NCBI RefSeq assembly: GCF_000332135.1
Contig: NZ_KB235896.1
Span: 3,305,321-3,369,320, forward strand
Source of the DNA: Anabaena sp. PCC 7108
GTDB lineage: Bacteria; Cyanobacteriota; Cyanobacteriia; Cyanobacteriales; Nostocaceae
Length of the DNA stretch: 64,000 nucleotides
Direction: 5' to 3'
A program made the translations under genes and the position numbers. Below are positions 9,179-22,727 of this stretch, one piece after another. The notes below the pieces were generated by a model, which was not told where the DNA came from, did not search any database, and was given only the letters and a program-made list of their open reading frames with translations. How positions within the stretch are numbered: the first letter of the stretch is position 1; every line of letters begins with the position of its first letter.

Positions 9179-11293
9179 ATGTCTTTAGAAATTCAATTTA
9201 GAAACCTGGTTGATACCACAAGCTCAACATTAGCTGAATATGATATAGAGAAATTAGATTTTTATAGGCAGTATGAACACTATGGAATAGCTTATGACGA
9301 TTCTTTAAAAGGTGAAATAGTAGAGCTTCATCTTCAACGAGTAGTACAAGAATCTCTTTGTGGTGGCTGTGACTCTGATTTTAAGGTATCACATTTACGG
9401 AAATTAAGAGAATATTTTATTCTAAGCTATATAGTTGATAAAAAAACTTTACAGCCTTATTTGGCTATTTTAGAAAAAATTCTCTTCTTTATAACAAACG
9501 GTAGTATTTATTCTTTAGATCATGAAAATCAATGGCGAACAGCTATTCAAGCAGTTAAGGATATTAGAACTCTAGCTGGTCCGATTGCAGAACCTAGCAT
9601 GGAAGACTTTCAAGAAAGATATAAACGTCAATTTGCAGTAGGTTGTGCAGCCAAGAATTTAAAGGAAAAAGGCTATGAATTAAGTATTGAAGATGGAAAA
9701 GTAATAATGAACCCTTCAGAAAAAGAGAGATTAATCAAGCAACTTGAGGATGATATAAAATTTCTTGGTGGTATAAACGTAGTTTCTAATTTATTTGCTT
9801 GGATAGAAAATGAATATTCGTTTAATCATAAACAAGAAAGATATCATTTAGTCCGCACTTTTGACTCAAATGAGCCAAATGTACCTGTATCTTATCTTAT
9901 AAATCTTGCTGTTAAAAATCCTCTAAAATCACCTAAATTAATTTCTGGTTCTCCAGAAGATACTTGGAAAAGATTAATTGAAACTTCTAGGGAATTTGCA
10001 GCAATATTTGATGTACAGCTTTACGAACGACTTCCAATATTTTTCCAAACAATAGACACTTTAGTCAACTTTTTACAAGATATTACAGTTTATGATAGCA
10101 TATTTACTCTAACTCAATTGCGACCATCTGATGTTTTAAGAATTTTACGTGGTTTGTTTGGATGGATTGATAGAGGTTTGTTTAGAACTAAAACAGGGTT
10201 AGATTTAGATCAAATTTTTGAAGTTATAGAGACAATTATTCAATCAGCAAATCATGATAGAACACCAACTTATTATGATTTTCAATCTCTAGCATCAAAA
10301 ATGCCCAATATTTCTCACGAAAGTCTGAGAAACATCTTAGATATCCTATCACATGAGAAATCTGCTAATCACAACTTAAAATTCCCCAATGATATTTCAT
10401 CTGTAGATTTTCAATTTAAGCCTCTTTTGAAAACAAGCAATGATGAATATGTAATGTTAAATCCATCATGGTGTTCACCTGCTTTTTATCAAGCTATTAT
10501 TTCTTTTCTAAAACAAAATGAATATATAATTTCTTATATTAAACAGCAATTTGACAATAAAAGCCTTGATCAAAAAGTTGGTCATCAAATAGAAGAATTT
10601 ATTAAAGAGGAGTTTCAAAAAAAAGGAATATCTTGCAAATTCGGTAAATATAAGATTAATGGTATCCAAGGTGAATGTGACTTAGTTGTGGAAACTAAGG
10701 ATACAATAATATTTATTGAAGTTAAAAAGAAAGAATTAACGCCACAAGCCAAGGGTGGTAATCAAGTTGATATATTTCTTGATATTACTAGAAGTTTAAT
10801 AAAAGCACAAACTCAGCTTGCAGGACATGAAGAATTAATTAGGGAATCTGGTTGCTTACCGCTAAAAACTGGTTCAAGAATTGATTTAGATGGAAGAGAT
10901 GTTGCTAAAATAGCAATTACACTATCAGATTTTGGTGGACTCAATGATAGAAATGTTGTATTTTTACTCGATCTAATGATTAGGAATCAAATTGATATAA
11001 CCGATTTACTATTTCAAACAAAAGCTGATAAAGTTCAGGAGGAAATAAATGACCTTTTAAACAAACTAAATAATTTAAACTCTACTACTTCCAACTCTTC
11101 ACCTTTTTCCAACAGTTGGTTTCTTAGTGTTCCACAGTTATTAGTTTTACTTGATAACGTAAATTCTAATGAATCGCTAAAAGCAGAACTATGGAAAACA
11201 CGCAACCCATCTACAGGTACACTCGATTCTTATTTTGAATATTTTTATTTTGATAAGGTAAGGACATACAGAAATGATATACAAAGTTTATGA
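9179..11293 (+). CDS. Large protein with C-terminal PD-(D/E)XK nuclease domain, putative defence protein
   Basis: A 704-aa protein I do not recognise as a named family. The first 450 residues are mostly helical with no clear motif or membrane span. At about 465-550 there is a restriction-endonuclease-like fold: a leading helix GHQIEEFIKEEFQKKG, then GECDLVV with Asp501, a strand IIFIEVKKK with Glu514 and Lys516, and a later helix with Gln (KAQTQLAG). This is the E...D-(ExK)...Q pattern of Mrr/NERD-type nucleases, so metal-dependent DNA or RNA cleavage is the likely chemistry. The gene overlaps the next one (STAS-like) by 20 bp, implying translational coupling. The coding region is AT-rich and I see no HIP1 octamer in it, compatible with horizontal transfer. 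A two-gene defence or stress module is my inference. Confidence 0.72.
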   Translation: MSLEIQFRNLVDTTSSTLAEYDIEKLDFYRQYEHYGIAYDDSLKGEIVELHLQRVVQESLCGGCDSDFKVSHLRKLREYFILSYIVDKKTLQPYLAILEKILFFITNGSIYSLDHENQWRTAIQAVKDIRTLAGPIAEPSMEDFQERYKRQFAVGCAAKNLKEKGYELSIEDGKVIMNPSEKERLIKQLEDDIKFLGGINVVSNLFAWIENEYSFNHKQERYHLVRTFDSNEPNVPVSYLINLAVKNPLKSPKLISGSPEDTWKRLIETSREFAAIFDVQLYERLPIFFQTIDTLVNFLQDITVYDSIFTLTQLRPSDVLRILRGLFGWIDRGLFRTKTGLDLDQIFEVIETIIQSANHDRTPTYYDFQSLASKMPNISHESLRNILDILSHEKSANHNLKFPNDISSVDFQFKPLLKTSNDEYVMLNPSWCSPAFYQAIISFLKQNEYIISYIKQQFDNKSLDQKVGHQIEEFIKEEFQKKGISCKFGKYKINGIQGECDLVVETKDTIIFIEVKKKELTPQAKGGNQVDIFLDITRSLIKAQTQLAGHEELIRESGCLPLKTGSRIDLDGRDVAKIAITLSDFGGLNDRNVVFLLDLMIRNQIDITDLLFQTKADKVQEEINDLLNKLNNLNSTTSNSSPFSNSWFLSVPQLLVLLDNVNSNESLKAELWKTRNPSTGTLDSYFEYFYFDKVRTYRNDIQSL

Positions 11294-11621
11294 TATTGTA
11301 GGTGAATATGCTATCACCGTTGATGGTGGACAAAAGCTATATAATCAGATTCATCCATATTTACTAACTGGTGAAACTGTAGAGTTAGATTTTGCAGGAG
11401 TGGAAATTTTTGCACCTCCATTCGTAAATTTTGCATTTGGTCAATTGTTGAAAGATATCCCAGCAGAGAAGTTGAATCAATTACTGCAATTCACTTCTCT
11501 CAATGATGATGGGAGGGATGTTATTAAACACGTGATGGCTAATGCTAAACGTTATTACTCTGATGAAAAATATCGTACTGCTGTGGATACGGTGATTACA
11601 GATATGGCTAGAACTTTCTAA
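11274..11621 (+). CDS. STAS-like domain protein (DUF4325 type)
   Basis: A small 115-aa protein. [24 protein letters not shown] at about residues 38-61 matches the core strand-helix of the STAS-like DUF4325 family. Members are often found next to signalling ATPases or large putative effector proteins and are thought to act as regulatory switches. Its start ATG lies inside the end of the nuclease gene (20-bp overlap), so the pair is almost certainly co-translated. Its stop overlaps the convergent uvrB stop by 4 bp. The exact function is unknown. By analogy with anti-sigma antagonists it could hold or release the nuclease partner, which is inference only. Confidence 0.75.
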
Positions 11622-13896: not shown

Positions 13897-14259
13897 GTGG
13901 AAGAAAATAACCAGAGTACTAATTTGAACACAGAAGAAGGTTCTCAGGGAACAATTATAGTTGCTGGAGAGCATCCCGCTGGCAGCAATGGCTTACAAGT
14001 CGCAGAAACATTCTCAAGCGCTGGATTACGTCCTATTGGCACAAGTAGCTTGGAAGTGGTTGAATCCTATAACGAAATGGGAATTCGTCCCATCGGTGCT
14101 AACACATTCCAAGTCGTTAGTAGTATTAACCTGTCTGGTATTCGTCCCATTGGTTCCAGTTCAATAATGGTGTCTGAAAATTATTCAGTCTTCGGTAATC
14201 GTCCAATAGCACCAAATATTGTTGATGATTCGGAAATTCTGATGGGTTTTCTAGATTAG
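13897..14259 (+). CDS. Small acidic protein of four tandem 19-residue RPIG repeats
   Basis: A 120-aa protein with no recognised family. The GTG start at 13897 is preceded by AGGAG (13883-13887) at good spacing. After a polar N-terminus come four imperfect 19-residue repeats, each of the form x-L-x-V-x-E-S-x(4)-G-(I/L)-R-P-I-G-x-(S/N). Three end in RPIG and the last in RPIA. The tail is acidic (VDDSEILMGFLD). There is no signal peptide, membrane span or Cys. Regular spacing suggests a small solenoid or repeated binding sites. It sits between uvrB (divergent) and the Hsp70 operon, followed by a strong hairpin at 14295-14340, so it is probably its own transcription unit. The function is unknown. 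Confidence 0.75.
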   Translation: MEENNQSTNLNTEEGSQGTIIVAGEHPAGSNGLQVAETFSSAGLRPIGTSSLEVVESYNEMGIRPIGANTFQVVSSINLSGIRPIGSSSIMVSENYSVFGNRPIAPNIVDDSEILMGFLD

Positions 14260-14657: not shown

Positions 14658-16841
14658 ATGGTTAAAGCAATAGGAATTGATTTGGGGACAACTAACTCTG
14701 TCGCTGCTTTTAAGTTGGCAGAAGTGGAAGTAGTGACAGCAAATGATAACACGCCCCCAGAGAGGAAACTCACGCGCTCTGTAGTTGCTTACGACCAAGG
14801 TAAATTTTTAGTCGGAGAACAAGCTTACAACCAGCTACGCCATGACCCCGAAAACGTGGTTACTTCAATTAAACGGTTAATGGGTAGGGGTTTTGGTGAT
14901 TCAGCAGTAAATAAGCAAAAATCAGAATTTGGTTACAAAATTTCCCAACCGACACAGGGAACAGACAACAGCATTGCGGTGTGGGTAGGAAATCAAGAAT
15001 ACCAACCAGAGGATATTTCAGCGGAAATTCTCAAAAAAGTGGTGCAAAATGCCCAAGCTTATCGTCAAGAAATTGGTAAAATCGACCAAGCTGTAATTAC
15101 TATTCCGGCTTATTTCAACGATAAACAGCGTTATGCTACCCGCACCGCCGCACTGAAAGCTGGACTAACACCTTTGGAACTGCTACCAGAACCGACAGCA
15201 GCAGCGATATCCTACGGGTTTTCACCTAATAGCGACGATGTTAAGACGATTTTGGTTTATGACTTTGGCGGTGGGACATTTGATGCTTCAGTAATTACCG
15301 CAGCCGGAACTTCATTTATTGAACAGGGGAAAGCAGGAGATTTATGGTTAGGTGGCGATGACATCGACTCACGGCTAGTGAAGTTTGTCAAAGAGCAAGT
15401 TGCTCAACAAGAAAGAATTGGCGATATTGAGGGATTAATCGCCAAAATGCCCTACTACCAACGGGTAAGGTTTAACGCTGATTTAAAGATAGCGGTAGAA
15501 AGGGCAAAAGTAGAATTAAGTAGTTTTACAGTGGCGATGATTGCGCCTTCTACGCAATTATGTGATGAATTGGGAATTGCAATTCCCATTGAGGTGGAAA
15601 TCACCCGCGAGCAATTTGAAATCATGATTAGTGATTTGGTGGAAAATTCGCTGCAAATTTGCCGCCAAGCTTTAGAGTATGCTCAATATCATTTAGAAAT
15701 GGTAGATGTGGTGCTTTTGGTAGGTGGTTCTTCCCAAATTCCTTTGGTACAAAGCAAACTTAAACAGGCTTTTGGCGCTAATAAAGTAGTTTTGCATCCT
15801 CGGCCTATGTACGCAGTGGCTGAAGGTGCAGCGATTGTAGCGGCTGGACAAACAGATAAAGTCACCACAGTATCCCGCGATTATGCCATTAAATTAGCAG
15901 ATGGCAAGTATACAAAAGTGATTAATCGGGGTGATATTTTGCCAGTGACAACATCCCACACTTTTAAAACTATCGCTGAGGGACAACGCCTAATTCATTT
16001 TCAGTTTTTCAGTCCAGATGAAGATAATAATTATGAAAGAATTGGGGAGATGTGGTTGGGTTTAGATGAAAAGTATCCAGCCGGAACCGAAATTATAGTG
16101 TATTTAGAGTTGGATGAAAAGAACAGCGATTTGCGAATGACAGCAACTTTAAAAAATACTCCAACGGTGAAAGTTAGTTGTACTTTTTCTCGTGGTCGTT
16201 CTGATGAGAGAATATATCAAGATTTAGAAGATGCGATCGCCCAACTCAATCACCAAAACCTAACTACATTCGGTGTGGAGGAAGCGCTGAAGTTAGCAGT
16301 ACCAGTGGTGCAATTAACTAACCAAATTATTAATCCTGTCACAGGAGAAGAACGCAGCGATTTACGTCTACGGGCTGGAGAGAATTTGCAAAAATTCCAG
16401 GTTTCTATGTCTCCAGAACGTCTAGAAGCGGAAACTCAGTTGCATGAGTGCGATCGCATAGTCAGACTTTGTGGATTTATGATTCTCCAACCCCAGCAAG
16501 AACGATTGCAAAAACTCAGTCAAGAACTGGAATCTGCAATTAACAACAATAACCGCTCCGCAATGGAGTATCATAGCGAAGAAGCAAGACGAGAACTCAG
16601 CAACCTACCCGAAGAAGTACAGGTAATTCAAGCTTGTATTATCGCCATTCAACAAGCCAAAGCAGTCGCACCTACCCAAGCAAATGCGATGTCTGACAAA
16701 CTTTCCCGCATACTAACGGCGATGGAAAATAACGATAGCAACGAAGCCGAACGTTTGTTGCGTGAACTACAACCAGATGTCCAACATTGGCTAAATCAAG
16801 ATTTACCAACTAATAGCATTATCACAGGACTGACGCGATGA
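14658..16841 (+). CDS. Divergent Hsp70 (DnaK-like) protein A
   Basis: A 727-aa Hsp70-family protein. The nucleotide-binding domain (about residues 1-385) has phosphate-1 GIDLGTTNS (Asp8), the connect motif PEPTAAAISYG, phosphate-2 LVYDFGGGTFDAS (Asp202) and the adenosine motif LLVGGSSQIP. The Lys essential for hydrolysis in Hsc70 (Lys71, in AKNQ) corresponds here to Tyr57 (AYNQ). The beta substrate domain is diverged (about 390-500). The helical C-terminus lacks a canonical EEVD or DnaK tail and has a 'SNLPEEVQVIQACIIAIQQA' type coil. It is the first gene of a five-gene operon and overlaps the next gene by 4 bp. It is not the housekeeping dnaK. ATP binding is likely, and hydrolysis rate and clients are unknown. 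Confidence 0.9.
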   Translation: MVKAIGIDLGTTNSVAAFKLAEVEVVTANDNTPPERKLTRSVVAYDQGKFLVGEQAYNQLRHDPENVVTSIKRLMGRGFGDSAVNKQKSEFGYKISQPTQGTDNSIAVWVGNQEYQPEDISAEILKKVVQNAQAYRQEIGKIDQAVITIPAYFNDKQRYATRTAALKAGLTPLELLPEPTAAAISYGFSPNSDDVKTILVYDFGGGTFDASVITAAGTSFIEQGKAGDLWLGGDDIDSRLVKFVKEQVAQQERIGDIEGLIAKMPYYQRVRFNADLKIAVERAKVELSSFTVAMIAPSTQLCDELGIAIPIEVEITREQFEIMISDLVENSLQICRQALEYAQYHLEMVDVVLLVGGSSQIPLVQSKLKQAFGANKVVLHPRPMYAVAEGAAIVAAGQTDKVTTVSRDYAIKLADGKYTKVINRGDILPVTTSHTFKTIAEGQRLIHFQFFSPDEDNNYERIGEMWLGLDEKYPAGTEIIVYLELDEKNSDLRMTATLKNTPTVKVSCTFSRGRSDERIYQDLEDAIAQLNHQNLTTFGVEEALKLAVPVVQLTNQIINPVTGEERSDLRLRAGENLQKFQVSMSPERLEAETQLHECDRIVRLCGFMILQPQQERLQKLSQELESAINNNNRSAMEYHSEEARRELSNLPEEVQVIQACIIAIQQAKAVAPTQANAMSDKLSRILTAMENNDSNEAERLLRELQPDVQHWLNQDLPTNSIITGLTR

Positions 16842-17332
16842 ATACCAAGCTCAACTGTCCTGTGTGTGGTTATCAAGAAATTGAGGGTAATATTTGCCCT
16901 AACTGTGATGCTAATCTTACCCTCATTCGCACACTTCAAGATTTACCTCAACTAGAAAAACCGCTTTTACAAAGCAAATTTAGTAAATGGACTTTGACTG
17001 TAGCTCTGCTAATGTTGATCATAGGTATTGGATTAGGTGCAGGAGGCAGTTTTTTGATTTTGCAATCATCTCCTTCTACTTCCACAATAGTTAGTACCCC
17101 CAAAGCAGCTATAAATTCATCTTTGACATTGAAGCAGCCACCAAAATCAATTTTTTACACAGTTAAATCAGGAGATAGCCTGAGTTTAATTGCTGAAAAA
17201 TTTTGTGGACAAGGAACTGATTGGCAAATAATGGTTCCAGCTAACCCTTTCTTAGAAAAACGGGAAAACTACTATATAGATCCTGGGGAAAAATTAGCGA
17301 TTCCTCATAGTTGTCAGGAGAAGAATAAATGA
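16838..17332 (+). CDS. Zinc-ribbon, single-TM, LysM-domain protein
   Basis: A 164-aa protein with three parts. An N-terminal zinc ribbon uses Cys7, Cys10, Cys20 and Cys23 (CPVCGYQ...CPNC). A transmembrane helix lies at about 51-75, preceded by Lys48 and Lys50, which predicts a cytoplasmic N-terminus. A C-terminal LysM domain (about 106-156; YTVKSGDSLSLIAEKFC...DPGEKLAIP) would lie in the periplasm and could bind peptidoglycan glycan chains. The start overlaps the upstream Hsp70 stop (ATGA) and its own stop overlaps the next start (ATGA), so translation is coupled. It is the likely membrane anchor of the operon's chaperone proteins. That role is inference. Confidence 0.82.
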   Translation: MNTKLNCPVCGYQEIEGNICPNCDANLTLIRTLQDLPQLEKPLLQSKFSKWTLTVALLMLIIGIGLGAGGSFLILQSSPSTSTIVSTPKAAINSSLTLKQPPKSIFYTVKSGDSLSLIAEKFCGQGTDWQIMVPANPFLEKRENYYIDPGEKLAIPHSCQEKNK

Positions 17333-19764
17333 GCCTTCTTGACAGCATCAAAGAAACAAGTCAGAAAGCCGAAAAACTTGCTCAACATAAGCAACTACGG
17401 GAAGCCATTACTATTAGTCAAACCGCACTCGCTGTTTGGGCAGAAAAACCGGGTTTTTGGGAACGTTGGCTAGGTAAATTATTAATCGGTAATCTTGTCA
17501 ACAAACTAGAACAACAATTAGAAAATTGGCGTAAACAAGTTGCAGAAGCCGATAATTTAGCTCATCAAGCCCAATTGATTCTTGAGCGAGATCATGGCGA
17601 TCCTTTTGAAACTCAAGCTTTATCTAGTGCGATCGCAATTTATCATCTTCATAACCGAATTCTTCACGATAAGCAGGTATCATTAGCGATTCAAAACAGC
17701 CAACAGGAACTGGAAAAGCGAGAACAATTTCAAGTCTTGGTGAAGCAAGCACAATCACAGGCAGAAAATCGCTTTTTTATCAATGCACTCACCACATATC
17801 AAGAAGCTGAAAATTTATACTCTACAGATTCAATAAAACAAGCTATTTCAGAAGTTAAAATCCAAGTTCAGCAAGAAGAAATTTACACTTCGGCGCTAGA
17901 AAAAGCACAGCAAGCTGTATCTGAAGGCAGATTACGGGGAGCGATAGCACTTTTAGATTTTTCTTTGGCAAACTTTCCTCGTTCTGATGGCATAAATTTA
18001 CTCAAAAAGATAAAATTAATAGTCCAAGGTAGAGAACTATTCCGTCAAGGATTAGCAGCCGAAAAAGCCGGTTCTTTACCAGCAGCTAAATCTTTGTATG
18101 AAAATGCAAAATCCCTTTTACCTGATTTTACAGATTGCCAAATCCGCTTAGGTTTAGTTGCAATTAAAATGCAAGATTGGGAAAATGCACTATCTCACTT
18201 ACAAGGTTTATCAGGACAACAAGCTGCTTATTTACGAGGTTTTGCACTAGCGCAACAAGCAAATTTACAGTTAGCTTATCGAGAATGGCAAGATATATCT
18301 GCTGCATCAATAACTGAACAACGAGAAATTGTTAAACGCATTGCTCAACATCAACGTTTACTATGTTTACAGAATATTGAAGAATTAGTCAAAGCTGAAA
18401 ATCTAGAAGCAGCAAAAAGATCCAGTACGGAATATATCCAAAAATTTGGAGATAATTCTGTGGTTGAACTTAATCTTCAAGAACATATTCAACCAAGTTT
18501 AGAAGCATCTGTTTGGAAAGATTCAGACTGGACAAATATTGCTAATAAAATGCAAAATATCTGGATTGTTAATCCTAATATTACGACATTACACAATTGG
18601 ACAGTAGCTAATTATTATCATTCCCAAAACCATCCTGATAAATTATTAGATTTAATTATTTCTGTATTTACTGCAATAGCAAATTTAACAATAGATCCAA
18701 CTCTGGAAGATGTACCTTGGTTGGGAAACCAAGCTGTTGATTTTACTTCTATATCTGTAGAACTAAAACGCCGTTTAGAAGCAGCAATTGATAATATCAA
18801 AAATACCAATATTGAAGATTATGACGCTTATTTAAATCTGCGTGATTACTACCGTTGGGAGTTAGTCGCACTCAGATTTATGGGTGAACCGGCGAACTCA
18901 GGAATACAAGTCAATAATGTATTTATCACACCTGGATGTTATCAACAATTTAGTTCCCAATGGCAAAATTTAATCAGATATACAATAGATCCTAGTCAAA
19001 AAATTCTCCGTTCTCTTTATACACCTTGGGGTTTAGCAGTAGCAGCTTGTTTAGAAAGTGATATTCAAAGAGCAATTGAAATCAAACCTGTAAATCAAGC
19101 TACTAATGAAGTTGAAGAATTTGCCCATAACTTCATCGCTTATTATCAAGGTTGCTATTACTTACAGCAACAAAAATGGCAATTAGCAATTCTACCGTTA
19201 CAAGATGCTATAGCCGAAATTGAAGATAATCAAGATTGGCAAAAAGAAATCGATAGACTTTTTAGTTTGCAACGTCAAACCATATCAGAATTTCCAGAAC
19301 ATTTAAAATTTGCTCAGTTTTGGTATGATATTATCAGCAGTAATTCCGCTAGAAGTTATTTAGCTGAATATAAAGCAGAAGAAATCAGAAAGCAACTGAT
19401 TAATGAAGAAATTACCGCAGTAAAAGCTTTAGAAAAACTGCAAGAAATTAAAAATATTGATGACGATAATCCTGTTGTCATCAGCATGATCGAAAAGGTG
19501 GAATTTAACCAAGATTTGGAAAAAATCGAGCAACTTTTTCATCAAAATCGTTTTGAAGAAATGGTAAGTAAAGCTAAAAAATCACGCTATGATAGAGTAC
19601 GTTATATTGTCGCCGAACTTTTTATTGATTTATTAATTAATGGGATTAAAAATGATACTTTAACTGATGGTGAAGCCATCCTTAATCTAGGAAAATGGGC
19701 TTTTGAAATCTGCCCAGATGAACCTGCATTCCAAGAAATTTACCGTAGCCTAAGATTGTGTTGA
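17329..19764 (+). CDS. Large helical-repeat (TPR-like) protein of the Hsp70 operon
   Basis: An 811-aa, nearly all-helical protein with no signal peptide or clear membrane span. TPR-like pairs are visible at about residues 15-45, 190-300 (for example AAEKAGSLPAAKSLYENAKSL) and 590-640 (HNFIAYYQGCYYLQQQKWQL), interspersed with coiled-coil stretches rich in Gln and Glu. It overlaps the LysM gene by 4 bp and ends 13 bp before the second Hsp70 gene. By context it may be a scaffold or client-binding adaptor for the two Hsp70s, as TPR proteins are for eukaryotic Hsp70. I know of no characterised homologue. It contains a HIP1 site and ordinary base composition, so it looks native. Confidence 0.8.
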   Translation: MSLLDSIKETSQKAEKLAQHKQLREAITISQTALAVWAEKPGFWERWLGKLLIGNLVNKLEQQLENWRKQVAEADNLAHQAQLILERDHGDPFETQALSSAIAIYHLHNRILHDKQVSLAIQNSQQELEKREQFQVLVKQAQSQAENRFFINALTTYQEAENLYSTDSIKQAISEVKIQVQQEEIYTSALEKAQQAVSEGRLRGAIALLDFSLANFPRSDGINLLKKIKLIVQGRELFRQGLAAEKAGSLPAAKSLYENAKSLLPDFTDCQIRLGLVAIKMQDWENALSHLQGLSGQQAAYLRGFALAQQANLQLAYREWQDISAASITEQREIVKRIAQHQRLLCLQNIEELVKAENLEAAKRSSTEYIQKFGDNSVVELNLQEHIQPSLEASVWKDSDWTNIANKMQNIWIVNPNITTLHNWTVANYYHSQNHPDKLLDLIISVFTAIANLTIDPTLEDVPWLGNQAVDFTSISVELKRRLEAAIDNIKNTNIEDYDAYLNLRDYYRWELVALRFMGEPANSGIQVNNVFITPGCYQQFSSQWQNLIRYTIDPSQKILRSLYTPWGLAVAACLESDIQRAIEIKPVNQATNEVEEFAHNFIAYYQGCYYLQQQKWQLAILPLQDAIAEIEDNQDWQKEIDRLFSLQRQTISEFPEHLKFAQFWYDIISSNSARSYLAEYKAEEIRKQLINEEITAVKALEKLQEIKNIDDDNPVVISMIEKVEFNQDLEKIEQLFHQNRFEEMVSKAKKSRYDRVRYIVAELFIDLLINGIKNDTLTDGEAILNLGKWAFEICPDEPAFQEIYRSLRLC

Positions 19765-19777
19765 TAGGAGTTTGCTG

Positions 19778-22195
19778 ATGGGTATAGCAATTGGAATTTG
19801 TTTTGGCTCAAAAAACTCTATTGCATCGTTCAAACTGCAAGATATAGAAATTGTAACAGCTAACAATAATACACCTCCAGACCGGAAGTTCACTCGTTCT
19901 GTGGTTGCTTACGACCAAGGTAAATTTTTAGTCGGAGATCAGGCTTACAATAAGATATATCATGACCCAGAAAATGTAATTCTTTCAATCCGAAGCTTGA
20001 TGGGGCGTGGCTATGAAGATCCTTTTGTTCAAGTATTTCGTTCAAATGTGGGTTACAAAATTACACCACCAAGCAATGGGACAAAACATAGCTTATCTAT
20101 ATGGCTAGGAGGTAAGGAATACCAGCCAGAAGATATTGCGGCAGAAATTTTTAAACAACTTGTTCAAAATGCCCAAGCTTATCGGCAAGGAATGGGCAAA
20201 ACTGGGGAAATCATTAATCAAGCTGTCATTACTATTCCTGCCTATTTTAACGATAAACAACGCTACGCTACCCTCACCGCAGCCCTCAAAGCTGGACTTA
20301 TTCCTTTGGAACTGCTACCAGAACCGACAGCAGCAGTAATATCCTATGGGTTTCCACCTAATAGCAACGATAACGATGTCAAGACAATTTTGGTTTATAA
20401 CTTTGGCGGTACGACATTTGATGCTTCAATAATTACCGCAGCCGGAACTTCATTTATTGAACAGGGGAAAGCGAGTGATTTGTGGCTAGGTGGTGATGAT
20501 ATCGACTCGCGGTTGATGCAGTTTGTAAAAAAGCAAGTCGCGTTGCAAGAAAGAATTAGTGATATTGATTCCTTAATTTCTAAAATGCCCTATTATCAAC
20601 AGGTGCGATTTAACGCTGATTTAAAGATTGCGGTAGAACAGGCAAAAGTTGAATTAAGTAATGCGAAATCTGCTCAAATTACCCCGGCTACTCAATTACT
20701 TGATGAATTGGGAATTGCAATTCCCATTGAGGTGGAAATCACCCGCGAGCAATTTGAAATCATGATTAATGATTTGGTAGAGCGTTCACTACAAATTTGC
20801 CGACAAGCTTTAGAGTATGCTCAATATCACTTGGAAATGGTAGACGTGGTGCTTTTGGTTGGTGGTTCTTCCCAAATTCCTTTGGTACAAAGCAAACTTA
20901 AAGAAGCTTTTGGCGCTAATAAAGTAGTTTTACATCCCCGGCCTATGTACGCAGTGGCTGAAGGTGCGGCGATTGTGGCGGATGGACAAACAGATAAAGT
21001 CACCACAGTATCCCGCGATTATGTCATAAAATTAGCAGAGGGCAAGTATACAAAAGTGATTAATCGGGGTGATATTTTGCCAGTGACAACATCCCACACT
21101 TTTAAAACTATAGCTAAGGGACAACGCTTAATTCATTTTCAGTTTTTCAGCCCAGATGAAAATAACAATTACGAAAGAATTGGGGAAATTTGGCTAGGTT
21201 TAGAGAAAAAATATCCAGCGGGAACCGAAATTACTATTTATTTTGAGTTGGATGAAAAAAATAGTAATTTAAAAATTTCGGCTACTTTAAAAAATGACCC
21301 TTCCCTAGAAGTTATTTGTAATTTTACCCGTGGTCGTGCTGATGAGAGGATATATCAAGACTTAGAGGAAGCAATAGAGGAAGTGAATAATAAAAATCTC
21401 ACTGCTTATGATATGGAAGAAGTTTTAAAATTAGCAGTACCAGTTATGCAGTTAGCTAACCAAATTATTAATCCTGTCACAGGAGAAGAACGCAGCGATT
21501 TACGTGATCGCGCCCTAACAATTCTGCAAAAAATGAAAGAAGCAGTAGCGGTTCCTAAAATGACAAGCAAATCAAACCCAAATAATCTTAACCCCTACGA
21601 TATTCTCGGTATATCTCAAGCCGCATCAAAAGCTGAAATTACCAAAGCTGTAGCCTTAGCAATGAAGCGCAAGCAATATCCTGTAGATGTGATTGCTAAA
21701 GCGCAAAAAAGCTTGATGAAGTCAGAAGAAAGAATAATTGCTGACTATTTGCGTCCAATATTGCCAACTATTAAGCGCTTCAAGTATAGTAACTTAGAGG
21801 CGTTGGCACAAGCAGCACCGTCACTGACCTTATTATCAGAATTTGATAATTTAGATCATGCGATCGCTCAAGCCAAGCAACAAGAAAACCTAGAACGAGA
21901 ACCTTTACCAATTCCTTTATCAGAACTATTCACAGAAGGCATGACAGCCTGTAGAGAAGGACGCTACCCCAAAGCGATCAAATACCTAGAAGACTACTGC
22001 CAAGGCTGTAAAGAACACAATAGTCAAAACTATCTGCAAGCGCAAATTTGGTTGATTAAAGCCTATCAAATGGGTGGACAATTACAAAGAGCGATCGCTA
22101 TTTCACGAATGTTGAGTAATCATACTCATCCTCAAGTCAATACTTGGGCTAACAAGATATTAGCTATGTTATCTAAAGAAGCTTCCCGTGTCTGA
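19778..22195 (+). CDS. Divergent Hsp70 protein B with degenerate nucleotide site and J-like/helical C-terminus
   Basis: An 805-aa Hsp70 paralogue. The ATG at 19778 is preferred because AGGAG ends 7 nt upstream. A TTG 6 nt earlier is an alternative. Phosphate-1 reads GICFGSKNS: the metal-site Asp8 is Cys and the Thr12 of protein A is Lys. Phosphate-2 reads LVYNFGGTTFDAS: Asp is Asn208 and the third Gly is Thr. Tyr57 again replaces the catalytic Lys. The adenosine motif LLVGGSSQIP remains. ATP hydrolysis is predicted to be lost or very weak. At about 603-655 a J-like segment (NPYDILGISQAASKAEITKA) lacks HPD, having YPVD instead. Helical repeats follow to the end. Long stretches are near-identical in DNA to protein A. 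The stop overlaps the GrpE-like start by 8 bp. Confidence 0.88.
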   Translation: MGIAIGICFGSKNSIASFKLQDIEIVTANNNTPPDRKFTRSVVAYDQGKFLVGDQAYNKIYHDPENVILSIRSLMGRGYEDPFVQVFRSNVGYKITPPSNGTKHSLSIWLGGKEYQPEDIAAEIFKQLVQNAQAYRQGMGKTGEIINQAVITIPAYFNDKQRYATLTAALKAGLIPLELLPEPTAAVISYGFPPNSNDNDVKTILVYNFGGTTFDASIITAAGTSFIEQGKASDLWLGGDDIDSRLMQFVKKQVALQERISDIDSLISKMPYYQQVRFNADLKIAVEQAKVELSNAKSAQITPATQLLDELGIAIPIEVEITREQFEIMINDLVERSLQICRQALEYAQYHLEMVDVVLLVGGSSQIPLVQSKLKEAFGANKVVLHPRPMYAVAEGAAIVADGQTDKVTTVSRDYVIKLAEGKYTKVINRGDILPVTTSHTFKTIAKGQRLIHFQFFSPDENNNYERIGEIWLGLEKKYPAGTEITIYFELDEKNSNLKISATLKNDPSLEVICNFTRGRADERIYQDLEEAIEEVNNKNLTAYDMEEVLKLAVPVMQLANQIINPVTGEERSDLRDRALTILQKMKEAVAVPKMTSKSNPNNLNPYDILGISQAASKAEITKAVALAMKRKQYPVDVIAKAQKSLMKSEERIIADYLRPILPTIKRFKYSNLEALAQAAPSLTLLSEFDNLDHAIAQAKQQENLEREPLPIPLSELFTEGMTACREGRYPKAIKYLEDYCQGCKEHNSQNYLQAQIWLIKAYQMGGQLQRAIAISRMLSNHTHPQVNTWANKILAMLSKEASRV

Positions 22196-22727
22196 ATTAC
22201 CGCCAATTTATCCTCTGAGTCAAGAGTTACGCAATTTAGTTATCCAAAAATTGGGGATTCTTGAAAAAGAAAATGTTGTCTTGCAACAATCCCTAAGAGA
22301 ACAAAAAACTCAAACTGCAGCCCAAACTGAAGATCTATTTTTAGAACTGTTAGAAGTTGCTGATGCACTAGAAGCGTTATTACACTATCTAGAAAATAAC
22401 CCTAATCCGAGTCCAGAATTTATAGAACGCTTACCCCGTTCCATAGCCGCAGTTAATCGGAAATTTCTTAGTGTATTAGGAAAACGCCAACTTTTACCTA
22501 TAGAATTGACGGGTACAGAACCAGATTTTAACTTGTGTCGAGTTATAGATCGAGAAGAAAGAACGGATGTTCCCGACCAAACAATTACTAAAATTGTCCG
22601 TCGCGGATTTCGTTGGGGTGAGAAAATTCTCCGCCCTACAGAAGTAATTACCGCTAAAGTAGAATCAAATTTAGATGATAATATAAATGAAACTATAAAT
22701 GAAACTATAAATGAAACTATAAATTAA
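22188..22727 (+). CDS. GrpE-like nucleotide exchange factor
   Basis: A 179-aa protein starting at GTG 22188, inside the end of Hsp70 B. The N-terminal half is a long amphipathic helix (ILEKENVVLQQSLREQKTQ). The C-terminal half has GrpE-type beta-domain features ending in GFRWGEKILRPTEVITAKV, comparable to the G...VLRPAxVxV end of GrpE. It is more diverged than a housekeeping GrpE. The last 15 residues are a NETI repeat coded by a 12-bp tandem repeat. As last gene of the operon it would serve as exchange factor for one or both upstream Hsp70s. That is inference from family and context. Confidence 0.85.
   Translation: MSELPPIYPLSQELRNLVIQKLGILEKENVVLQQSLREQKTQTAAQTEDLFLELLEVADALEALLHYLENNPNPSPEFIERLPRSIAAVNRKFLSVLGKRQLLPIELTGTEPDFNLCRVIDREERTDVPDQTITKIVRRGFRWGEKILRPTEVITAKVESNLDDNINETINETINETIN
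22685..22724 (+). repeat. 12-bp tandem repeat at the end of the GrpE-like gene
   Basis: AATGAAACTATA occurs three times in a row at the 3' end of the GrpE-like gene, coding for repeated NETI, just before the stop. A 12-bp unit changes length in frame, so the tail may vary among strains. Confidence 0.85.

Follow-up and report, generated by a model that had tools for sequence, protein, structure and literature searches.

The locus and its genes

The window analysed here is a stretch of 64,000 nucleotides from Anabaena sp. PCC 7108 (contig NZ_KB235896.1, positions 3,305,321 to 3,369,320 of the forward strand). It contains a module of five genes, designated A to E in their order, that encode a divergent Hsp70, a protein composed of a zinc ribbon, a transmembrane segment (TM) and LysM, a helical protein with a stretch similar to tetratricopeptide repeats (TPR), an Hsp70 copy joined to a J-like protein, and a GrpE-like protein (Table 1). 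A sequence-only reading had described the genes as lying on one strand with overlaps or very short gaps, and the coordinates of the open reading frames (ORFs) agree with it: the overlaps are of 4, 4 and 8 bp, and the gap before D is of 13 bp when the ATG start is taken and of 7 bp with the TTG start.

The two Hsp70s, which had been called non-canonical, are indeed so. A and D match PF00012 with 319 and 284 bits (Pfam), and against the NCBI DnaK equivalog NF001413 they reach 308 and 256 bits, where the cut-off is 648; when PF00012 was searched in the whole genome, the three canonical DnaKs obtained 823–891 bits, A 324 and D 285. The GrpE-like nature of E was also borne out (PF01025, 60.1 bits, cut-off 25.8), with scores below the cut-offs of the NCBI GrpE equivalogs. 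LysM of B is recognised with 31 bits (cut-off 20.9), and C gives only sub-threshold TPR matches in Pfam. A third GrpE-family match of the genome lies at C2:401219-401656 (L142), in a 239-aa protein with an N-terminal part that is helix-turn-helix-like by eye.

Table 1. Positions, within the window, of the five genes of the module and of their parts.
Feature	Position	Strand	Remark
Gene A, divergent Hsp70, 727 aa	14658-16841	+	PF00012; catalytic residues kept, DVLLLD linker absent
A codon 72 (DnaK K70, catalytic Lys)	14871-14873	+	Kept
A residues 404-409, TVSRDY	15867-15884	+	At the place of the DnaK linker; L390, L391 and D393 without counterpart
A C-terminal tail TGLTR	16824-16838	+	
Gene B, zinc-ribbon/TM/LysM protein, 164 aa	16838-17332	+	LysM match
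B zinc ribbon	16856-16906	+	
B TM (one)	about 17006-17062	+	
B LysM	17156-17305	+	
Gene C, helical protein, 811 aa	17329-19764	+	TPR-like stretch about 18034-18318
C conserved C-terminal half	18466-19761	+	No PDB match by sequence
Gene D, 807 aa from TTG; 805 aa from ATG at 19778	19772-22195	+	A-derived Hsp70 copy + J-like protein
D Hsp70 part, A-derived	19778-21565	+	PF00012
D residues 605-699, J-like domain, HPD absent	21590-21874	+	Fourth gene of the ancestral set
D residues 700-805, TPR-like tail of the J-like protein	21875-22192	+	Present when the J-like protein is long (about 200 aa)
Gene E, GrpE-like protein, 179 aa, GTG start	22188-22727	+	GrpE match

Conservation and distribution of the module

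Altogether 81 stretches were annotated, that is the window, three relatives and 77 from further genomes, after three duplicates were dropped. All five genes are present in 62 of them. The conservation of gene order, which the sequence-only reading had named as the test of its proposal, is nearly complete: in 61 of these 62 stretches the genes stand on one strand in the order Hsp70, zinc-ribbon/TM/(LysM) protein, TPR protein, J-like protein and GrpE, the single exception (L061) having the order B-A-C-J-E. The other 19 stretches comprise six that are cut by contig ends (L056, L060, L120, L136, L177, L184), two with one split gene (L167, L172) and 11 that are decayed or rearranged (L124-L131, L137, L178, L179).

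The flanks of the module differ from locus to locus. Among 23 loci no flanking family is common to more than five, a signal-peptidase gene lies downstream in 12 of the 59 loci with enough sequence, and of ten sampled neighbour genes nine gave unrelated Pfam assignments and one gave none. Since, outside close relatives, the order is conserved within flanks that are not, the association of these genes is more than chance, which supports that the five genes form a real, self-contained module.

Among 292 cyanobacterial genomes C has matches in 27 (E 1e-5), of which six were left out: four (family f31) align over a part of the TPR region only (about residues 201-325 of the query), and G127 and G237 have no more than broken fragments. 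The J-like domain profile matches exactly the same 21 genomes that remain. Of the 217 genomes in the family of the window, 43 have a J-like gene of near full length by count of the listed matches; most other matches of the profile there reach only the TPR tail, and a few further genomes carry shorter forms. The module is also present in other families, the J-like gene being found in 7/15 genomes of the family of G109, 7/38 of the order of G282 and 1/18 of the class of G026, so that it is scattered across cyanobacteria in a patchy manner. That single genome of its class carries L061 (family f35); its assembly is fragmented, and this occurrence could be due to contamination at binning. In three loci of family f1 (L052, L134, L135) A groups in the tree with A proteins from outside Nostocaceae, and a quick tree likewise places C outside the main f1 group. 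This placement suggests that the whole module may have been transferred horizontally; against it counts the flank of L135, which has the downstream signal-peptidase gene in common with 11 other loci. C and the J-like protein were not found on plasmids, and C was not found in phages; the plasmid matches of A are below 60% identity, many of the 20 listed being annotated as dnaK.

Gene A retains the ATPase centre and lacks the J-docking surface

The equivalents of DnaK P143, D148, E171, D194 and T199 are present in all 62 A proteins, and K70 is a lysine in 61, with one gap that results from a split ORF in L182. The equivalent of R151 is arginine in 56 and lysine in six. The contacts between J proteins and Hsp70 were described in PMC8215388, where the sections available report that H33 of the HPD motif contacts L391 and D35 contacts R167 and Q378, while basic residues of the J domain contact E206, D211 and E217. 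In A this surface is changed throughout. The linker residues L390, L391 and D393 are absent from 62/62 A proteins, whereas the hydrophobic linker is present in the three canonical DnaKs of the same genome. Q378 is replaced by valine in all 62; the R167 equivalent is E in 55, I in four and K, V and R in one each, and the E217 equivalent is I in 61 and M in one, all three positions being kept in the canonical DnaKs. E206 is kept by none of the A proteins, which have T, Q, V or M instead, Q being found also in one canonical DnaK, and the D211 column is uninformative. By its sequence A is thus shown to be an Hsp70 with an intact-looking ATPase centre that has lost the J-docking surface.

The C-terminus of A is conserved as well. 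A TG[LI]-type end is present in 60/62 A proteins (exact TGLTR in 28/62), and over 28 aligned rows the residues T, G, L, T and R of the tail are conserved at 100, 93, 89, 61 and 86%, compared with a mean of 55% over residues 681-720. The fused Hsp70 copies described below do not contain the TGL-type tail.

A J-like protein without HPD as the fourth member

In relatives the fourth gene encodes a stand-alone J-like protein of 118-229 aa. PF00226 matches 15 of 16 J-like members, the best at 5.5e-7, and the member from the window obtains 19.3 bits, under the cut-off of 27.8. When aligned by hhalign with seven canonical J domains of the same genome, the J-like domain gave a probability of 93.5% over 26 columns that cover helix I-II only, versus 0.1% for the controls B and E. 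None of 74 J-like ORFs contains the HPD motif, and the loop is covered in 72 of them. In the 47 of these 74 proteins that could be parsed by pattern, the R22 equivalent is never basic and the K26 equivalent is K in one. By its sequence the J-like protein thus appears to keep helix I-II of a J domain, and it is devoid of HPD.

The claim of two Hsp70s is not borne out in the form in which it was made: PF00012 is found in genes 1 and 4 of the window, but the ancestral set consists of one Hsp70 and a small J-like protein. A second Hsp70 as an ancestral member was rejected, since relatives have the stand-alone gene in its place.

Gene D and other fusions of A with the J-like protein

Gene D of the window is a chimera, in which about 596 Hsp70 residues, 79% identical to A, are placed in frame before the J-like protein. 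Such a second Hsp70 occurs in one of the 43 genomes of the window's family that have a near full-length J-like gene. Other fusions of A and the J-like protein were found in G109 (L054) and in G484 (L120), the latter being cut by the contig start, so that its active-site part is unreadable. D carries the changes K70R, D8C, D194N and G198T (DnaK numbering), and the set of catalytic residues is therefore incomplete; in total D8, T11, T12, K70, R71, D194 and G198 are lost, the numbering being approximate for neighbours. The L054 copy lost K70, R71 and G198 and kept D8 and D194. In 64 columns of the ATPase domain, 31 A proteins and three canonical DnaKs all agree; of these columns nine are changed in D and four in the L054 copy, with three shared (hypergeometric P 0.0075); among 99 columns invariant in A alone, the changes are 12 and 7, again with three shared (P 0.037).

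All three fused copies are on long branches of the tree (0.26-0.40). By counting alone, one gain of the fusion followed by losses may be proposed; the tree, however, places each fused copy with its own lineage, i.e., D with the A proteins of Nostocaceae, the L054 copy with A of the same locus and the L120 copy within family f8. A single origin was rejected, as the starred branches force three changes and 0% of 200 bootstrap trees gave one.

D is constrained by selection: over the ATPase domain its dN/dS against A is 0.22 at a dS of 0.63. A decaying pseudogene is not supported, since the frame remains open over 805 codons at this divergence. Neither is the window fusion recent. The dS of 0.63 between D and A exceeds the 0.11 found between A of the window and A of its relatives, so the copy is older than the split from L009-L011, which do not have D; it may have been lost there, or transferred into the lineage of the window. 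Along the gene the DNA identity of D and A (19778-21565 vs. 14658-16841) swings between 0.61 and 0.97, which suggests partial gene conversion. Considering the residues lost, the Hsp70 part of D is probably a fixed scaffold or a docking decoy and not a second ATPase.

The predicted membrane proteins

The zinc ribbon is present in 62/62 B proteins and a TM, called where the Kyte-Doolittle mean over 19 residues was at least 1.6, in 61/62, the last one (L061) reaching 1.59. LysM is found in 52/62 and is missing or cut in ten, including L045, where it lies in another frame. The constant part of B is therefore the zinc ribbon with the TM, and LysM is optional. An N-terminal TM is additionally present on C in 4/23 relatives and on the J-like protein in 1/23, and LysM is also found on C in three relatives. 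The link with the membrane that the sequence-only reading proposed was upheld by the sequences; the idea of work at the cell wall or septum, as it was formulated, leaned on LysM and was not. In general, the earlier observation was confirmed and its interpretation partly supported.

Members of the set have been joined or rearranged with one another repeatedly. Apart from A with the J-like protein and LysM on C, a 275-aa ORF of G149 (L179:8708-9535, minus strand) unites E with the J-like TPR tail. The occurrence of such fusions and rearrangements within one set suggests a physical partnership of its products. G149 holds also a complete divergent module elsewhere (L052).

Expression and regulation

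Both primers for hsp70(4) of Planktothrix agardhii match A of L049 (G255) with no mismatch and give a product of 259 bp, as printed. Since the match is exact and the size agrees, hsp70(4) (KF294787) is the orthologue of A. In the portions of PMC3762838 available, this gene belongs to the least abundant basal group, and after 2 h of high light its change was 0.82 and 1.00 fold, placed in the slight-but-significant group, compared with 13.3 and 8.3 for dnaK. In 62 upstream stretches NtcA, LexA and other simple patterns were not above shuffled sequences (NtcA 5 vs. 7.25) and no CIRCE element was found; the promoter and terminator scans stayed at the level of chance.

A proposed membrane-tethered Hsp70 machine and its alternatives

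Because A lacks the linker and docking residues and its partner lacks HPD, both halves of the Hsp70-J contact are gone. The reading that we favour, if by no wide measure, is that the module encodes a dedicated Hsp70 machine that is tethered to the membrane and controlled independently of HPD. B, often together with C, would hold the machine at the cytoplasmic membrane, on its inner face, and in proteins with LysM would also tie it to peptidoglycan. The J-like protein and C would position A and its client, E would exchange the nucleotide, and one or a few clients in the envelope would be folded, unfolded or extracted at the expense of ATP cycling by A. Eukaryotic Hsp70s dock on TPRs by their EEVD tail, and by analogy the TGL-type tail of A may dock on the TPRs of the module. 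The motor of mitochondrial import, PAM, is composed of a membrane-tethered Hsp70, a GrpE-type factor and the J-like Pam16, which has no HPD; it also has a J protein with working HPD, Pam18. As proposed here, the module would resemble PAM in the first three parts and differ in the last, a likeness at the level of description.

Several observations count against such a machine. The tail is missing from two A proteins and is not exact everywhere, LysM is missing or cut in ten B ORFs, and the positive-inside signal around the TM is weak. HPVD occurs near the place of HPD in 8/47 parsed J-like proteins, and YPVD-like loops in many more, which may represent a shifted but working motif. Furthermore, members decay separately. 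G295, a genome of the same genus, has only a remnant of A, although its B, C, J-like and E genes are intact and constrained (dN/dS 0.14-0.30). In G245, G333, G048 and G127, B and E are intact and constrained (dN/dS 0.09-0.19 between them; L126, L127, L129, L130), whereas C, the J-like gene and the visible A are decaying, A of one of these genomes being located beyond the contig end. The parts are hence separable, which argues against one obligate machine. B and E may work without A, or the decay may be too recent to show; the zinc-ribbon/TM/LysM and GrpE-like pair may also have a role of its own.

Could the module instead be a regulatory switch, in which ATP-dependent binding and release of a partner tunes an envelope process such as exopolysaccharide (EPS) or pilus function? 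Specialised bacterial Hsp70s of this kind are known. As the accessible text of PMC9239167 describes, the DnaK1/DnaJ3/GrpE set of Nostoc punctiforme works at the cell envelope, where DnaK1 and DnaJ3 connect pilus motors with polysaccharide, and StkA and SglK affect EPS and social motility of Myxococcus (from the available part of PMC8265645). The low expression of the Planktothrix orthologue, which light stress does not induce (PMC3762838), and the patchy, dispensable distribution would suit a switch. However, A is not DnaK1, and the grpE-dnaK-dnaJ locus of the genome lies outside the window, at C2:698889-702475. The N. punctiforme set differs also by a canonical DnaK, a J protein family with HPD, a single general GrpE and another locus, and the text consulted reports no LysM or TPR operon partners (PMC9239167); SglK is a DnaK of PRK00290 type that complements E. 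coli dnaK, and in what is accessible of PMC8265645 no such operon is described. Finally, no pilus or polysaccharide gene constantly adjoins the module, Wzz-like, sugar transferase and PBP genes being found at single loci. We regard a switch as unlikely.

It was also considered that the module serves in biological conflict, as a defence-type system akin to the GTPase-centred ones of actinobacteria and firmicutes. According to the available excerpts of Kaur et al. (2020; PMC7159879), GAP1-N2 neighbourhoods contain HSP70, GrpE and DnaJ- or TPR-fused proteins, sometimes with a second, reduced HSP70, and the patchy distribution, differing flanks and repeated decay form the pattern of an accessory system. 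Yet, the theme as described there concerns other phyla, and the cyanobacterial module has the zinc-ribbon/TM/LysM protein and no FNIII-repeat protein was found in it. No GTPase family matched the five proteins or the neighbours scanned (two in the window and ten sampled), and no MoxR or vWA match was obtained in the five proteins or the ten neighbours; PADLOC gave nothing better than E 0.02, and neither Pfam nor PADLOC recognised an effector-like part in the module, in which the C-terminal half of C belongs to no recognised kind. A role in conflict is improbable.

That the module is an accessory DnaK set of the ordinary sort, which serves stress proteostasis and diverged through dispensability alone, is very improbable. 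In its favour, every nominal part of an Hsp70 machine is present (an Hsp70 with ATPase and beta-sandwich homology, a partner apparently related to J domains and an exchange factor of GrpE type, as in DnaK-DnaJ-GrpE) and members decay in some lineages. Against it, the active-site residues have stayed invariant, whereas the J-docking surface shows coherent change; the zinc-ribbon/TM protein is constantly associated with the set, no CIRCE precedes it, and the orthologue was not induced by high light, which concerns light stress only (PMC3762838, in part). The module differs from DnaK-DnaJ-GrpE also in the scores of A and D, at less than half of the DnaK cut-off, and in the TPR and zinc-ribbon/TM/LysM proteins encoded with it.

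Other genes of the window

A 120-aa ORF at 13897-14259 contains a repeated RPIG-containing unit and is found near the module in 4/62 complete loci, all of close relatives. At 9179-11621 two ORFs overlap, one for a 704-aa protein that Pfam assigns to no family above cut-off, the other for a STAS-like protein of DUF4325.

Implications for Hsp70 biology

HPD, together with the interdomain linker, counts as the switch of Hsp70; according to the accessible part of PMC8215388, replacement of HPD abolished stimulation in every system tested. Searches of the open-licence literature of PubMed Central listed no description of the five-gene set; closest to it are the neighbourhoods of Kaur et al. (2020) and the DnaK1/DnaJ3 system. 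Going further than the membrane-tethered machine, we propose tentatively, and short of favouring it, that the module is an orthogonal Hsp70 machine, in which neither HPD nor the DVLLLD linker is needed to trigger the ATPase. The universal J-Hsp70 interface would have been dismantled on its two sides together, with catalysis kept, and control would have passed to the TPR and zinc-ribbon membrane scaffold, which would hold A by its TGL-type tail. As Lys70, its neighbour and Gly198 are changed in both readable fusions, a pseudo-Hsp70 regulator may have arisen recurrently through the three fusions of J-like proteins with Hsp70 copies.

A natural and conserved Hsp70 set that lacks both elements of the switch and retains the ATPase centre would show how Hsp70 can be driven in other ways. 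Such a set would be an orthogonal chaperone, from which no cross-talk with the resident DnaK and J proteins of the cell is expected. It is also a gene set ready for bench work, and its member hsp70(4) of Planktothrix has been measured before, though under a different name.

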